Of a stretch of DNA of 61,870 nucleotides, positions 30,447 to 52,778 are shown in pieces. The DNA comes from Kiritimatiellia bacterium. Lineage in GTDB: Bacteria > Verrucomicrobiota > Kiritimatiellia > JAAZAB01. Under the pieces are notes generated by a model. It was not told the DNA's origin and did not search any database. It saw only the letters and a program-made list of their open reading frames with translations. A program made the translations under genes and the position numbers. The stretch lies in assembly GCA_028715905.1 (NCBI GenBank), contig JAQUQV010000005.1:1-61870 (forward strand), given 5' to 3'. Within the stretch, counting starts at the first letter, position 1. The number at the start of each line of letters is the position of its first letter.

Positions 30447-30567
30447 TTTTTTAGGAAACGAACGTTTATTGTTCAATAACTCTTATATGATGATACCGGC
30501 GTTTTTTGATGGACGCAATGTCAAACCTGAATATTGCACGAAATTCGTGCAATATTCGGGTCAAACA

Positions 30568-30919
30568 TGGAGGCGGGGGGATTTGAACCCCCGTCCGCAC
30601 AAGCATCGCACCGGCTTCTACGCGCGTGTTCTGTCTTTGAAAGTTCGCGGAAGCGCTGGCCGGCAGACAGGCTTCGCTTCAACTAGCGTCCGCGTGAATT
30701 TCATTCCGCCGCCCGGTCGCTCAACGGTGGAACTAACCCGCAATCGTCGCCTTGTCCGTTCCGCGGGTGGTCAACGGCAAGACGTCGTGGCTTTATTAAG
30801 CCGCGAGAGCTAATTCTGTATTAGCGTTTATCTTGATTTCCCGGGTGTTTAACGAGGCCGACCGGGGTCCTCGGCGCGCGACCGATGTTTCAACTTCCGC
30901 GTCGAAACCTGTCGCCCCC
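30568..30919 (-). ncRNA. ssrA: tmRNA (transfer-messenger RNA)
   Basis: The minus strand gives a 352-nt RNA. The 5' end GGGGGCG pairs with the 3' CGCCTCC as a 7-bp acceptor stem (one G-U), followed by a discriminator A; CCA is not encoded. The T arm is GGGGG-TTCAAAT-CCCCC, and the 5' side has CGACAGGTTTCGACGCGG, the conserved tmRNA D-like start. The tag frame is GCT AAT ACA GAA TTA GCT CTC GCG GCT TAA TAA (30825-30793), encoding ANTELALAA. It rescues stalled ribosomes with SmpB. A strong hairpin lies just before its 5' end. Confidence 0.96.
30796..30825 (-). other. tmRNA tag reading frame (ANTELALAA)
   Basis: Nine codons from GCT at 30825 to GCT at 30799 encode A-N-T-E-L-A-L-A-A, followed by two stop codons. 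The L-A-A ending is the usual ClpXP/ClpAP degron. The preceding codon would be AAC; the resume codon is taken as GCT because GCN is the rule at this position. Confidence 0.85.
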
Positions 30920-46170: not shown

Positions 46171-47727
46171 TCACCGCGCGTATTCAATGAATCGTTTTTC
46201 GCGGATAACGGTTACTTTTATTTGTCCCGGATATTGGAGGTCCTGTTCAATTTTTTTGCTGATATCGCGCGCCAGATGCATGGCGGCGGCATCATCAATC
46301 TTTTCCGGAATGACGAGCACGCGCACTTCGCGGCCGGCCTGGATGGCATAGCTTTTTTCAACGCCGTCAAACCCGGCGGCGACGGCCTCAAGCTGTTCCA
46401 GCCGTTTCACGTAGTTCAGAGTGGTCTCGGAGCGCGCGCCTGGCCGGGCCGCGGATATTGCGTCGGCGGCCGAGCAGAGGTGGGCATAGATGCTTTCCGG
46501 AGCGACGTCGTTGTGGTGCGCCGCCACCGCGTTTAAGAGGGTCTGCTGTTCGTTATGGCGGCGGAGGAAGTCGGCGCCGATGACGGCATGATTGCCTTCA
46601 ACCTCGCTGTCCAGCGCTTTGCCGATGTCATGGAGCAGTCCAATTCTTTTGGCGAGCGCAATATCCAGCCCGAGTTCGCCGGCCATGATGCCCATGATGT
46701 TGGCGACTTCAATGGAATGGATCAGGACGTTTTGAGAATAACTGCTGCGGAATTTAAGCCGTCCGATGGCGCGGACCAGTTCGGGGTTCAAGCCCTGCAG
46801 CCCCGCCGCGAAAACCGCCTCTTCGCCCGCGGAACGGATGGTTTCGTCCATTTCCTCCCTGACCTTGGCGACCACTTCCTCAATGCGGGCCGGGTGGATG
46901 CGGCCGTCGGCGATCAGTTTTTCAAGCGACTGCCTGGCTATTTCGCGCCGGAGGGGATCAAAGGCGGAAATCACGACGGTTTCCGGCGCGTCATCCACGA
47001 GCAGGTCAACTCCGGTGGTTGATTCCAGCGCGCGGATATTGCGTCCTTCGCGGCCGATGATTCTGCCCTTCATATCCTCGCTCGGCAGGTTGACGGTGCT
47101 GGTCATAATCTCGCTGGCATGTCCCGATCCGTAGCGTTGAATGGCCATGGCGATGATTTTTTTGGACTCGCGTTCGGCGGATTCCTTGGCCTCCTCCTGC
47201 AGACGGCGGATCAGCATGCCGGTTTCGCTGCGGATTTCCTCCTCGGTGCGCGCGATCAACTTATGGCGCGCTTCTTCCTGGGTCATGCCCGCGATTCGTT
47301 GAAGTTTTTCGCGCTCGTTTTTGACCAGGGCGGCATATTCCTCGCGTTGCTTGCCGATTTCCGTTTCTTTTTTTTCTATTTCCGCCTGTTTTTCCTCAAT
47401 GTTCTGGTATTTCTTGTCAATCATGGCCACTTTCCGGTCCAGATTGAGCTCGCGCTGCGCCACCCGTTCTTCAACGGCGGCCATTTCCTGGCGGCGGAGT
47501 TTTATTTCGCTTTCAAATTCATCCCGGACTTTCAGCATAACCGCCTTCGCCTGCAGGTCGGCCTGCTGGCGAATGGAATCGGCATCGCGCCGGGCGTTTT
47601 CCAGTAAATGTTTTGCCTCGTGTTCCGCCGCTTTGGCCGTATAACGGCCGATAATAAAACGCAGGTAATAACCCAGGGTTGCCGCCAGCAACACCACTAA
47701 TGCGCCCATCCACCATTCTGTCATCAT
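46171..47727 (-). CDS. rny: Ribonuclease Y
   Basis: 518 residues in the RNase Y order: an N-terminal membrane span (WMGALVVLLAATLGYYLRFI), a long coiled coil (about 30-200, rich in E, K, A, R), a KH domain with GRIIGREGRNIRALESTTGV, and the HD domain with LLHDIGKALDSEVEGNHAVIG. It starts mRNA decay at the inner membrane. The end carries the family HIKVTVIREKR-like KVTVIREKRFIEYAR. The start lies about 150 bp downstream of the 5-formyl-THF cyclo-ligase stop. Confidence 0.96.
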   Translation of the reverse strand: MMTEWWMGALVVLLAATLGYYLRFIIGRYTAKAAEHEAKHLLENARRDADSIRQQADLQAKAVMLKVRDEFESEIKLRRQEMAAVEERVAQRELNLDRKVAMIDKKYQNIEEKQAEIEKKETEIGKQREEYAALVKNEREKLQRIAGMTQEEARHKLIARTEEEIRSETGMLIRRLQEEAKESAERESKKIIAMAIQRYGSGHASEIMTSTVNLPSEDMKGRIIGREGRNIRALESTTGVDLLVDDAPETVVISAFDPLRREIARQSLEKLIADGRIHPARIEEVVAKVREEMDETIRSAGEEAVFAAGLQGLNPELVRAIGRLKFRSSYSQNVLIHSIEVANIMGIMAGELGLDIALAKRIGLLHDIGKALDSEVEGNHAVIGADFLRRHNEQQTLLNAVAAHHNDVAPESIYAHLCSAADAISAARPGARSETTLNYVKRLEQLEAVAAGFDGVEKSYAIQAGREVRVLVIPEKIDDAAAMHLARDISKKIEQDLQYPGQIKVTVIREKRFIEYAR

Positions 47728-47874
47728 GTTTACCTCTGTTCTATAGTTTTGTGTTTACTCATGTAAATGGTCCTGGCCCGCATTCATGCCATTCAATCCG
47801 GCCCCGGCGGGGGCGGGCTTCCTTTTTTTGCGCGCGTGTTTCCGGAAAAGACGATGATTTTCCGTCTTTATTCT

Positions 47875-48471
47875 TCACTCGCCGGCCGCTTGGCCGCCGC
47901 GGCCGCAACAACGATATATTTTAGATTCCGTGACGACCATATCCATCCGCACATCCCCGGGGCGCAGGGACAGGCGGCCGTATATTTGAAAATCAAAGGC
48001 CAGGCCGATTTTACAGGCCGGGCGGAACTGGGGCTGGAGGAGGAGATTGTCGTAATATCCGCCGCCGTGCCCGAGGCGTCCGCCCCGGCAGTCAAAGGCC
48101 AGTCCCGGCACGAAAACCAGGTCTATTTGCGCATCCCCGATCCATTTCGGCTTCAGCGGTTCGTGGATTTTAAAACGGCCCGGGCGGGTCTTGTCATTGT
48201 CCTCCAGGAGGGCGGGGGCATATTGCCGCAGGGGTTTGGAAAAAGCGGGCACAAAAAGCGTTTTATTTTCCGCCCGGCATTTTTTTATGATGGCGCCGGT
48301 CTGGATTTCCGCCGGCGCGGCCAGGTAACAACAGGTGTTTTTTGCCCGGCGCCATTCGGGGAGGGCCAGGGCCAGTTTTTGCGCGGCCGCGCTGGCGGTT
48401 TCAATGAAGACTTCGTCCAGCTCCTGCCGCGCGGCGCGGATCTCCGCTCTGATTCTCTGTCTTTCGTCCAT
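47875..48471 (-). CDS. 5-formyltetrahydrofolate cyclo-ligase
   Basis: 198 residues, the MTHFS/YgfA family. MDERQRIRAEIRAARQ at the N-terminus, AENKTLFVPAF, DLVFVPGLAFDCRGGRLGHGGGYYD (the ATP- and folate-binding loop G-x-G-x-G-Y-Y-D) and AFDFQIYGRLSL with the DVRMDMVVTE closing strand. It returns 5-formyl-THF to 5,10-methenyl-THF. It follows rarA by 24 bp; rarA in turn follows the 6S-RNA candidate, an arrangement that recalls ssrS-ygfA in proteobacteria. The last ten codons are basic and non-conserved. Confidence 0.93.
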   Translation of the reverse strand: MDERQRIRAEIRAARQELDEVFIETASAAAQKLALALPEWRRAKNTCCYLAAPAEIQTGAIIKKCRAENKTLFVPAFSKPLRQYAPALLEDNDKTRPGRFKIHEPLKPKWIGDAQIDLVFVPGLAFDCRGGRLGHGGGYYDNLLLQPQFRPACKIGLAFDFQIYGRLSLRPGDVRMDMVVTESKIYRCCGRGGQAAGE

Positions 48472-48495
48472 ATGCGTTTGGGCCGGCCGCCGGTT

Positions 48496-49863
48496 TCAGT
48501 TTTCAGGTTTTTTTGCCTGCTGTCCGGCGGCGGCCTGATGTCCGTTGTCTTTTTTATCCGCTGATTTTTTTCGCCAGTAATCCAGCCGTTGCGCGATGGT
48601 GTCCTCGTATCCCTGCCGCGTCGGCTCGTAGTAGACGGCGGCGGAGGGCATATACTCCTGGTCAACAAAATGTCCGTCATAATCGTGGGCGTATTTATAG
48701 CCGGTGTGGCCGAGCCGTTTGGCGCCCTTGTAACCGGAGCCGCGCAGCGGCTTCGGCACGGCGAGGGTCCGGCCTTCCTTGACGTCGGCCAGGGCCTTTT
48801 CAACCGCCAGGTAGGAAGCGTTGCTTTTCGGGGCGCATGCCAGATAGGTTACGGCCTGCGCCAGGATAATGCGCGCTTCCGGCATGCCGATGAATTCCAC
48901 GGCTTCTTTCGCGGAGACGGCGATGTTTAAAGCCCGCGGGTCGGCGTTGCCGATATCTTCGGAAGCGAGTATGATGAGCCGGCGCGCGATGAAACGGGGG
49001 TCTTCGCCGGCATAGAGCATTTTGGCAAGCCAATAGACGGCGGCGTCGGGATCAGAACCGCGCACGCTTTTTATGAAGGCGGAAATGGTGTTGTAATGAC
49101 CGTCGTCGTCCCGGTCGTAAACGACCGCTTTTTTCTGGATGGAGTCTTCCGTGGTCCGGCGGGTGATATGGATGCGCTTGTTTTTTCCGGCGGGAGTGGT
49201 CAAGACCGCGATTTCCAGGGCGTTCAGCGCCCGGCGGGCGTCGCCCTCGCACGCTTTTGCCAGATGGTGCAGGGCGTCGTTATCCAGGTCAACGGGCATG
49301 TTTCCCAAGCCGCGCTCCTCCGTGAGCGCGCGCTGTAACAGCCGGGAGATCGCGCTTTCCGGGAGAGCTTCCAGCTCAAAAATCTGTGAACGGGACGTGA
49401 GCGGGCTGTTGATGAAAAAAAAGGGATTGTGAGTGGTCGCGCCGATCAGAATGATATTGCCTTCTTCCACGTAAGGCAGAAGGATATCCTGCTGGGACTT
49501 GTTGAAGTGATGGATTTCGTCAATGAAAAGAATGGTTTCCGCGCCGTCGCGTTTGCGGCGCTGAAAGGCCGTTTCCAGTATTTCGCGCAGGGCGGCGACG
49601 TTGGCCAGCACGCCGCTGGCTTTTTCAAAGCGCCGGCTGGTTTTCAGGGCAATTACCTCGGCCAGGGAGGTTTTTCCGCAGCCGGGGGGGCCGTAGAGGA
49701 TGATGCTGCCGATCCGGTCGGATTCAATCGCCCGGTGCAAAAGCTTTCCGGGCGCGATCAAGTGTTCCTGGCCGGCGATTTCTTCCAGGGAGCGCGGCCG
49801 CATGCGCGCCGCCAGGGGCGGGTTGGAAGCGGCTTCGTTTTTATTATCAGCGAACAATTCCAT
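48496..49863 (-). CDS. rarA: Replication-associated recombination protein A (RarA/MgsA)
   Basis: Start at the ATG at 49863 (MELFADNKNEAAS). The 455-residue AAA+ ATPase has PLAARMRPRSLEEIAGQEHL, ILYGPPGCGKTSLAE (Walker A), LFIDEIHHFNKSQQDIL (Walker B), LIGATTHNPFFFINSPL (sensor 1), LACEGDARRALNALE, the MgsA tetramer domain with SAFIKSVRGSDPDAAVYWLA and the C-terminal GTGYKYAHDYDGHFVDQEY. It acts at stalled replication forks. The 30 bp before it form the 3' end of a 6S-like RNA, and the first U-run ends 1 nt before its ATG. Confidence 0.95.
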   Translation of the reverse strand: MELFADNKNEAASNPPLAARMRPRSLEEIAGQEHLIAPGKLLHRAIESDRIGSIILYGPPGCGKTSLAEVIALKTSRRFEKASGVLANVAALREILETAFQRRKRDGAETILFIDEIHHFNKSQQDILLPYVEEGNIILIGATTHNPFFFINSPLTSRSQIFELEALPESAISRLLQRALTEERGLGNMPVDLDNDALHHLAKACEGDARRALNALEIAVLTTPAGKNKRIHITRRTTEDSIQKKAVVYDRDDDGHYNTISAFIKSVRGSDPDAAVYWLAKMLYAGEDPRFIARRLIILASEDIGNADPRALNIAVSAKEAVEFIGMPEARIILAQAVTYLACAPKSNASYLAVEKALADVKEGRTLAVPKPLRGSGYKGAKRLGHTGYKYAHDYDGHFVDQEYMPSAAVYYEPTRQGYEDTIAQRLDYWRKKSADKKDNGHQAAAGQQAKKPEN

Positions 49864-49868
49864 AAAAA

Positions 49869-50044
49869 ATACCCCGCCTAACCGTGTCGTAGCCACTCTC
49901 TGTTCCGAACAAACAAGGTGGGTGTTTTAGCAAATGGTTTCCAGTTCCCCGGAGAGGGGCGGCTGGGCGCCATTTGATTCAAACTCCCTTGACTCAATTA
50001 ATGGGTCAGATGGTAGGTCCGAAACCACGTATCAGGCAGGGCAT
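49869..50044 (-). ncRNA. Candidate 6S RNA upstream of rarA
   Basis: The minus strand can fold as a closed long hairpin of about 176 nt. The 5' ATGCCCTGCCTGA pairs with the 3' TTAGGCGGGGTAT over 13 bp (some G-U), then CGTG with CACG. A large internal bubble follows, with a small hairpin TGAC...GTCA on the 5' side. The apical stem is AAATGG / CCATTT, CCAG / CTGG and CCCC-TCTCC-GGGG. This is the 6S layout of closing stem, bubble and apical hairpin, with the known neighbour 5-formyl-THF cyclo-ligase two genes on. TTTTTT follows the 3' stem. It is a structural inference; a covariance search was not possible. Confidence 0.5.
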
Positions 50045-50118
50045 TTTTCAAACGGAGTCTTTTTATTTATCTGTGAAAGAACAGCCTGGAAAACGGCAGC
50101 AGGGCTTTCACAAAAGCT

Positions 50119-50150
50119 GGAAACATTTCTCGTGACGGGAGAATGTTTCC
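50119..50150 (-). terminator. Stem-loop downstream of pheT
   Basis: GGAAACATT and AATGTTTCC (9 bp, extended by CTC/GAG inside) enclose a short loop; on the minus strand it is followed by AGCTTTTG. It lies about 160 bp after pheT and 75 bp before the 6S candidate. The run of T is short, so it may be an intrinsic terminator of pheST or only a folding element. The rest of 50151-50309 shows no gene that I can see. Confidence 0.45.
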
Positions 50151-50309
50151 CGCATTGGTTTTGGCCGCAGATGCCGTTGATTGGCCCGCGGATTTTGCGC
50201 CGATCCAGCATTTCCGCAATCTAATAAAGCAGGTTGCCTGCGCAATCCCGCGCCATAATTCCATATTCTCAAGAAACCAGATGCAAGTGCTCCGTTCATA
50301 CTCTCTGAA

Positions 50310-52778
50310 TTACCCTTCCCGTATTTCCACCTTTAACTCATCTTTGAGCCGTTTTTTGACGGAATCGTGAAGCCGGTTGGCTTCCATATCCGTCAATGTC
50401 CGCTCCGCTGACTGATAGGTAAGGCTATAGGCCATGCTTTTAAAGCCGGCGCCTATTTCCTTACCCGTATATATATCAAACAGAACGATAGATGTCAATT
50501 CTTTTGGGGCATTTTTTCTGATTGTTTTTATGATGTCGGCGTGCCGCATAAAGAGAGGCGCCCGCAGGGCTATGTCCCTTTTCAGGGATGGATAAACCGG
50601 AAGGGTTTGAACGGCCGGGGTCCGGAAGGCATTTTTCAGGAATGGATTGAGCGCAAATTCCATCAGTCCGACCGGTTCCAGGATGCGCCATTCACGGCGG
50701 ATTTCGTCCTTTAATAGTCCCATGACGCCGCAGGGGACGCCGTCCATGCTGATCAGCATGCCGCGGTCCGGCTTGAGGCAGGCGGCGTAAAAGCCGTCCG
50801 TGATCCTGTTGTTGAATTCATGCAGCGCCAGCCCCGGCGGGGCGCCGTTATTTTCGGCATAAGCCGGACTGGCTTTGCCCAGGAGTTTGCCGCAAAAATT
50901 ATGCAAAATTCCCTTGAGCCATGCGAACACTTCCGCCTCGGTAAGGCCGGGGCGTTTGTGCAGGGCATGCCGTCCCGCGGCGCCCATGATGCCCACGGCG
51001 GTTCTGGTTTCTTCATGGAAACGGCCGGCATCTTTTTTCATAAAAACGCGGGCGATTTCAAAAAAGGCCGCCTCCTCAATCTGCCGCGATCTGTTCCGTC
51101 CGAGCGTTTCGGCCATCTGGGGCAACAACGAATCGCGCAGGAGCGTGTGTTCGGCGTTGACCGGCCGCGGAATGTTTATCCGGTTTGCGGCGGGCGAGGA
51201 ATCAAACATATTGAGCAGTTTTTCGGAGACAAAGCTGTAATTGGCGATTTCCCGCAGGCCGAGCGCGGCGAGCAGCTGGCGGCAGCGGAATTGCGCCCGG
51301 ATGGGCCGGTCATCGGCGCCGGCGGCCAGCTGGCAGCGCGGGGCCGCGCATGGGATTTTGTCCAGTCCGTGGATACGGGCGATTTCCTCAATCAGGTCCG
51401 CCTCGGATTCCAGGTCCGGGCGGAAAGCTTTCACCGCCACGGCGCACTGCGTTTTCTGTTCGTCAACAACCGGGATGTCCAGCGCGTTGAAAATCGCGGT
51501 AATGCGTTCCGGGGGTATCGGCGCGCCCAACAGTCCGGAAACGCGGCTATAACGGCAGATTATTTTTCTTTCGGCCGGCCGGCGGGGGAAACAATCCAGC
51601 ATGCCCTTTGCCGTTTTTGCGCCGGCGATTTGCGCTATGAGCGCGCAGGCCCGCCGGCTGGCAAAATCAGCCAGGCTGGCGTCCACGCCCCGTTCAAACC
51701 GGTAAGATGATTCAGTCGCAAGCCCGAGCCGTTTGGATGAATTCCGGATGAGCGGCGGCCGGAAGCAGGCGCTTTCCAGCAGGACGGCGGTGGTTTCCGG
51801 CCTGATGCCGCTTTTTTTCCCGCCCATGACGCCGGCAATTGCGACCGGGCCGTGTTCATCGGCAATGACCAGAATTTGCGGGTCAAGCTTATACTCAAGG
51901 CCGTCCAGGGCAATGATGGTTTCGCCTTCGCCGGCGCGGCGGACGATGATTTTTCCGCCGGAGAGCGTCTGGAAATCAAAGGCGTGCAGGGGTTGGCCGC
52001 ACTCCAGCAGGACATAGTTGGTAACGTCCACAATATTGTTGATGGCTTTGATTCCGGCCGCCGCCAGCCGGCGGCGCAGCCAGAAGGGGCTTGGGCCAAC
52101 CGCGGCGTTTAGCAGGAGGCGGGCGGTATAACGCGGGCAATCCGCGCTGTCTTTCACCGCAACCGCGATGCTGTTTTGAATCGGTGGGTTTTCCTCCCGC
52201 AAAGCGGCGTCCGGCCATTTTAGTTTCGTTCCGAAGATGGCCGCCACCTCGCGTGCGACGCCGATGAGCCCGAGCAAATCCGGGCGGTTGGGGGTGACTT
52301 CCACGGTCAGCACCTGGTCGGGCGGACCTGAAATTTCAGCCAGCGGTTGGCCGATTTGCGCCTCCGGCGGCAGAATCATGAGGCCGGAATGGTCGTCGGA
52401 AAGCCCCAGTTCGTCCTCGGCGCATAATACACCCTGCGATAATTCGCCCCGGATTTTTACGCTTTTGACGGTTGTGCCGTCGGAAAGGGTCGCGCCGATC
52501 CCGGCCAGGGGAACCTTGTCGCCGGCCTTGCAGTTGCCGGCGCCCGAAACAACGCGGAGAATTTCCGCGCCGTTGTTCACCAGGCAGACGCGCAGGTGGT
52601 TGGCGTGGATATGGGGATCAACGGCGGTGATTTCGCCGACGATGATATTTTCCGGCACACCGCCCCGGGTTTCAATGCCTTCCACCTCAAGACCGGCGGA
52701 AGTCAGGCGCGCGGCCAGAGTTTCGGCGTCGGCCTCAAAGTCAACATAATCTCTCAACCAACTCAGGGGGATTTTCAT
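50310..52778 (-). CDS. pheT: Phenylalanyl-tRNA synthetase beta subunit
   Basis: 822 residues, the full bacterial form. The N-terminus MKIPLSWLRDYVDF, the tRNA-binding OB domain with GEITAVDPHIHANHLRVC, VVSGAGNCKAGDKVPLAGIGA, CAEDELGLSDDHSG, then VTPNRPDLLGLIGVARE, INNIVDVTNYVLLECGQPLHAFD, ESACFRPPLIRNSSKRLGLAT, SSYRFERGVD and the C-terminal anticodon domain (YPSLKRDIALRAP, DIYTGKEIGAGFKSMAYSL). It forms an alpha2beta2 enzyme with PheS. The start overlaps the pheS stop by 4 bp. Confidence 0.97.
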   Translation of the reverse strand: MKIPLSWLRDYVDFEADAETLAARLTSAGLEVEGIETRGGVPENIIVGEITAVDPHIHANHLRVCLVNNGAEILRVVSGAGNCKAGDKVPLAGIGATLSDGTTVKSVKIRGELSQGVLCAEDELGLSDDHSGLMILPPEAQIGQPLAEISGPPDQVLTVEVTPNRPDLLGLIGVAREVAAIFGTKLKWPDAALREENPPIQNSIAVAVKDSADCPRYTARLLLNAAVGPSPFWLRRRLAAAGIKAINNIVDVTNYVLLECGQPLHAFDFQTLSGGKIIVRRAGEGETIIALDGLEYKLDPQILVIADEHGPVAIAGVMGGKKSGIRPETTAVLLESACFRPPLIRNSSKRLGLATESSYRFERGVDASLADFASRRACALIAQIAGAKTAKGMLDCFPRRPAERKIICRYSRVSGLLGAPIPPERITAIFNALDIPVVDEQKTQCAVAVKAFRPDLESEADLIEEIARIHGLDKIPCAAPRCQLAAGADDRPIRAQFRCRQLLAALGLREIANYSFVSEKLLNMFDSSPAANRINIPRPVNAEHTLLRDSLLPQMAETLGRNRSRQIEEAAFFEIARVFMKKDAGRFHEETRTAVGIMGAAGRHALHKRPGLTEAEVFAWLKGILHNFCGKLLGKASPAYAENNGAPPGLALHEFNNRITDGFYAACLKPDRGMLISMDGVPCGVMGLLKDEIRREWRILEPVGLMEFALNPFLKNAFRTPAVQTLPVYPSLKRDIALRAPLFMRHADIIKTIRKNAPKELTSIVLFDIYTGKEIGAGFKSMAYSLTYQSAERTLTDMEANRLHDSVKKRLKDELKVEIREG

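Follow-up and report, generated by a model that had tools for sequence, protein, structure and literature searches.

A 6S RNA gene abutting rarA in Kiritimatiellae: the closing stem as predicted cover of the only SD-like tract of rarA

Introduction

6S RNA, a widespread RNA that regulates RNA polymerase, is viewed as acting in trans, and its neighbouring genes have no assigned significance. RarA plays a role in replication-fork repair. RNA leaders hiding an SD sequence are known from riboswitches and RNA thermometers, and some small RNAs are the products of transcription that terminates early within a 5' UTR. The 6S gene adjoins rarA in lactic acid bacteria, where rarA lies upstream, and in B. 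subtilis, where rarA is oriented in the opposite direction (PMC8414754). For E. coli, co-transcription of 6S RNA with ygfA is established (PMC2848244, PMC7641849).

Here we describe a 6S locus from a genome of the class Kiritimatiellae, analysed within a stretch of 61,870 nucleotides (the window). The adjacency of 6S and rarA is shared with lactic acid bacteria and B. subtilis, but here 6S is located upstream and forms the leader of rarA. The original prediction had regarded the link between 6S RNA and rarA as new. This does not hold, because the neighbourhood has been published for the organisms mentioned above (PMC8414754). A 6S RNA serving as rarA leader or hiding the ribosome site of rarA was not reported in the open-licence literature we searched, which lacks much of the subscription literature. 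A 6S helix holding the predicted ribosome site of its neighbour would constitute a direct physical link between 6S folding and the expression of a replication-repair gene.

Results and Discussion

Identity and fold of the 6S RNA

The Rfam covariance model RF00013 matched the minus strand of the window at 49867-50045 over the full model (positions 1-187) with 65.1 bits (E 1.3e-10), exceeding the gathering score of 46.4 bits. No other 6S match occurred in the assembly of 2.67 Mb. The predicted fold was more stable than all 200 shuffled sequences (z -4.3). In an alignment with 37 relatives 92.7% of the cells were paired and both-sided changes occurred at 22 pairs; none of 500 shuffles gave a covariation as high, and every slid version of the fold scored lower. 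What had been proposed as a 6S-like RNA is therefore confirmed, on the grounds of sequence and predicted fold, as a genuine full-length 6S RNA gene (ssrS). It shares with RF00013/SsrS the length, the closing stem, the central bulge, the internal stem and the conserved motifs.

The closing stem is formed by a 5' strand CCCUGCC (CCCTGCC in the DNA, 50035-50041) and a 3' strand GGCGGGG (49872-49878). Co-variation of this stem had been suggested as a check of the prediction, and it turned out to be uninformative, since the helix is nearly invariant (98.3% of the cells paired, five of eight pairs never varying in the 37 relatives), whereas the rest of the fold covaries strongly. In one respect the RNA differs from known SsrS: the 3' strand of its closing stem is at the same time the sole SD-like tract of the next gene.

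Downstream of GGCGGGG (49878-49872) the minus strand continues with UA, UUUUUU (49869-49864) and the ATG of rarA (49863). The stem had originally been assigned an end at 49869, which deviates by one or two bases; the TTTTTT followed by ATG 49863 was described correctly. An A-run in front of the closing stem (50048-50044) can pair with the U-run and extend the helix up to the rarA AUG, as seen in folds including 5-11 nt of 5' extension. The respective positions are rich in A (or T) across the class.

Neighbouring genes and start of rarA

The rarA gene (48496-49863, minus strand) encodes a recombination factor of 455 aa, an AAA+ ATPase, matching the NCBIfam PRK13341/RarA models with E values down to 7e-162. 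The predicted start at ATG 49863, directly at the U-run, is borne out by the MxLF motif at the start codon, which most of the 101 homologous loci have preserved. A longer rarA reading frame beginning with GTG 49896 inside the 6S gene was discarded; its N-terminus is not conserved, unlike MxLF at 49863.

Further downstream on the same strand follow fau/ygfA, encoding 5-formyltetrahydrofolate cyclo-ligase (47875-48471, TIGR02727, E 3.8e-40), and rny, encoding ribonuclease Y (46171-47727, TIGR03319, E 3.8e-208), which is the last conserved member of the cluster and is found at the same place in relatives. The upstream neighbour pheT (50310-52778, minus strand, TIGR00472, E 1.8e-211) is conserved across the class. 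Including pheS, which was assigned by its sequence and place, the gene order in the window is pheS-pheT-6S-rarA-fau/ygfA-rny.

A survey of 346 genomes from the class, mostly MAGs, gave 6S matches in 206, and 145 loci were examined. In 101 of these rarA is located directly downstream of 6S on the same strand, the conserved order expected of an operon of 6S with a protein gene. The complete order pheT-6S-rarA-fau-rny occurs in relatives of many families, and pheT lies upstream of 6S in most relatives. The gene fau/ygfA is probably co-transcribed with rarA. In common with the E. coli ssrS-ygfA locus, 6S lies upstream of a probably co-transcribed protein gene and ygfA belongs to the cluster; in contrast to it, rarA separates 6S from ygfA here, and its start abuts the U-run that closes 6S.

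Two genomes carry additional 6S matches. One of them (G061) has two 6S genes (L139, L197), each followed by rarA, at 25 and 18 nt, reflecting either duplication or contamination. The other (G007) exhibits a second, shorter 6S-like match away from rarA (L049:1501-1625, 35.4 bits), which ends in GGTGGGGTATTC.

The U-run as probable terminator of 6S

A U-run 3' of the stem was present in 98 of the 101 class loci with rarA and in 43 of the 44 without it (141 of 145 overall). As it occurs irrespective of rarA, it looks like the own terminator of 6S, which is the simplest reading of the sequence. At loci with a distant rarA or none at all, the stem sequence and the U-run are equally well conserved; neither is therefore kept for the sake of rarA. 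A GC-rich stem followed by a conserved U-run are features of intrinsic terminators, but the "loop" would comprise the entire 6S body, and a scan for short hairpin terminators found none at this locus. Most transcripts would accordingly be expected to end in the U-run as 6S RNA, and RarA would be made from the minority reading through.

These data bear on another possibility, namely that 6S is processed from a long 6S-rarA-fau transcript in the manner of the dicistronic E. coli 6S-ygfA precursor, with the cleavage destroying one product or the other. Although fau (ygfA) is part of the same cluster, and a dicistronic ssrS-ygfA transcript and its processing have been reported for E. coli according to work cited in PMC7641849, the U-run directly 3' of the stem in nearly every locus of the class fits termination and not 3' trimming. 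Moreover, the title of a study cited in PMC7641849 refers to Rho-dependent termination in E. coli. We regard such a precursor as improbable.

A predicted buried ribosome site

The 3' end of the 16S rRNA of this genome is the usual CACCTCCTTT. The GGGG of the closing stem, 8 nt in front of the AUG, is the only SD-like candidate for rarA, and no SD-like sequence was detected between the stem and the rarA AUG at the window locus. The U-run would thus double as the spacer separating this tract from the start codon. The duplex with the 16S 3' end was calculated at -7.5 kcal/mol with the stem and at +3.8 kcal/mol without it. In the predicted fold of the intact 6S RNA the GGGG has an unpaired probability of 0.00. 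Opening the rarA site would cost 18.5-25.3 kcal/mol in the intact RNA and 10.0 kcal/mol after loss of its first 15 nt, these values being predictions for naked RNA. Thus, GGCGGGG, already suspected to be the only ribosome site of rarA, remains the sole candidate and is predicted to be sequestered. In the analysis, neither a second fold for the intact RNA nor a signal acting on it was identified.

A sole SD-like tract in sequestered form implies that the intact fold and efficient initiation of rarA should exclude each other, as had also been predicted. This mutual exclusion is well supported as physics, i.e. by the predicted pairing and the opening cost, and unproven as regulation. A single copy of the RNA probably either acts as 6S or is read into RarA, not both. 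A terminator and an SD-sequestering helix before a start codon are shared with SD-hiding leaders such as riboswitches and RNA thermometers and with small RNAs from early termination in 5' UTRs. What sets the present case apart is that the helix is part of an RNA regulating polymerase in trans, and the comparison does not extend to ligand or temperature sensing.

On balance, we favour the following reading of the locus: a genuine 6S RNA with a terminator-like 3' end lies directly upstream of rarA-fau(-rny), and rarA, which has no separate ribosome site, is made from read-through RNA in which the closing stem is not formed. The intact folded 6S, or a folded 6S-rarA read-through RNA, would be almost silent for RarA. 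Translation may start from molecules whose 5' end has been cut off, or from those on which the ribosome binds before the stem closes.

The lower opening cost of about 10 kcal/mol for any transcript without the 15 nt at the 5' end of 6S, which is an ordinary value, would also suit a rarA promoter located in the 3' half of 6S or a 3' processing of 6S that leaves a near-leaderless rarA mRNA. In either case 6S folding would never meet rarA translation, and many bacteria are known to initiate on leaderless mRNAs. However, a consensus search of 49600-50500 gave no sigma-70-type promoter, and the U-run kept as likely terminator argues for read-through over processing. We therefore give little credence to this origin of the mRNA. 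A conserved box upstream of 6S was not apparent in 111 aligned upstream regions, either, and both negative results also count against the reading favoured above.

Start-to-stem distance and recurrence in the class

The distance between the last G of the stem and the start of rarA showed two peaks, with 11 loci at 6-11 nt, two at 12-17 nt and 63 at 18-29 nt, plus a tail. The gap at 12-17 nt would be expected if ribosomes rely either on the GGGG or on a new site, because there the GGGG of the stem is too far away to serve as SD and no room is left for a new site. The difference between 11 and two loci has a binomial p of 0.011, which ignores relatedness; counted by family it is 8 versus 1 (p about 0.02).

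In the 11 loci of the first peak, the window included, the GGGG is predicted never to be free and lies 6-11 nt from the start, within normal SD spacing. In these buried loci SD strength after the stem was nil (median +3.6 kcal/mol), and including the stem brought it to -7.5 kcal/mol. In contrast, the region after the stem reached -6.4 kcal/mol in the 71 loci with a start at 18-40 nt (Mann-Whitney p 1.5e-7 versus buried loci). Their SD after the stem was better than in shuffled sequences in 56 of 71 cases (p 5e-9), and some of these loci have little SD-like sequence. Opening of the rarA start region was calculated to require a median of 20.6 kcal/mol in the buried loci compared to 8.5 kcal/mol in the other group of loci (p 1.5e-6). 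Without the 5' half of 6S the cost in the buried loci fell to 9.2 kcal/mol.

The SD-hiding arrangement is not conserved among the relatives. It was found at 11 of 101 rarA loci, distributed over 8 families and scattered on the RarA tree with about 10 changes, at least 5 of them forced by well-supported branches; there was no clustering compared to shuffles (159 of 500 as low). Since the 71 relatives with a start 18-40 nt away have on average an SD-like sequence of their own, the coupling is not conserved in the class, though it recurs in 8 families.

Part of this pattern would also be explained by compaction without regulatory meaning. 6S would then be a stand-alone RNA and rarA would merely abut its terminator; little RarA would be needed, and its weak translation would either use the U-rich leader without an SD or take place on the few molecules that have opened. 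Such an origin agrees with the scattered occurrence of the buried form, which is not retained as a block, with the more distant start and own SD-like sequence of rarA in most relatives and with the maintenance of stem and U-run regardless of rarA. In addition, SD use is mixed in the window: about one third of its own long ORFs, from which these statistics were drawn, lack an SD-like tract, and several genes start after U-rich leaders without SD, so rarA might not need the GGGG. The two-peaked spacing with its gap at 12-17 nt (2 versus 11 loci) suggests instead that the GGGG matters, as does its position at normal SD spacing in all 11 buried cases. We consider compaction of this kind rather unlikely.

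Returning to read-through from 6S into rarA, in about ten other scattered species, as in the window genome, the U-run leads straight into the rarA AUG and the GGGG of the stem is the only SD-like tract. A further-reaching and tentative proposal, which we put forward as a possibility only, is that the closing stem has become an either/or device, gained repeatedly within Kiritimatiellae. It would direct each transcript to the polymerase-inhibiting 6S or to the RarA mRNA, and the output of RarA would depend on how 6S terminates, folds or is cleaved at its 5' end.

6S neighbourhoods outside the class

Only one of 28 6S loci examined in the phylum outside the class adjoins rarA, and a few adjoin pheT. 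In other Verrucomicrobiota (L230, L233, L235) 6S is located downstream of pheT and rarA is absent. Hence, the pairing of pheT and 6S may predate that of 6S and rarA. The pattern of stem, U-run and ATGGANYTNTTY was also hit in Planctomycetota, Ignavibacteria and further groups beyond the class; these hits contained neither a 6S nor a rarA match and were therefore dismissed as chance.

The cluster 6S-rarA-fau(ygfA)-rny (46171-49863 in the window; relatives L086, L093, L098-L126) unites the neighbours of 6S in distant phyla, rarA from Firmicutes and ygfA from Proteobacteria. It may be a pointer to an old arrangement, and it bears on the question why 6S is located next to these genes. Besides 6S, the window carries a tmRNA gene on the minus strand (30565-30919, Rfam RF00023, 167.5 bits).
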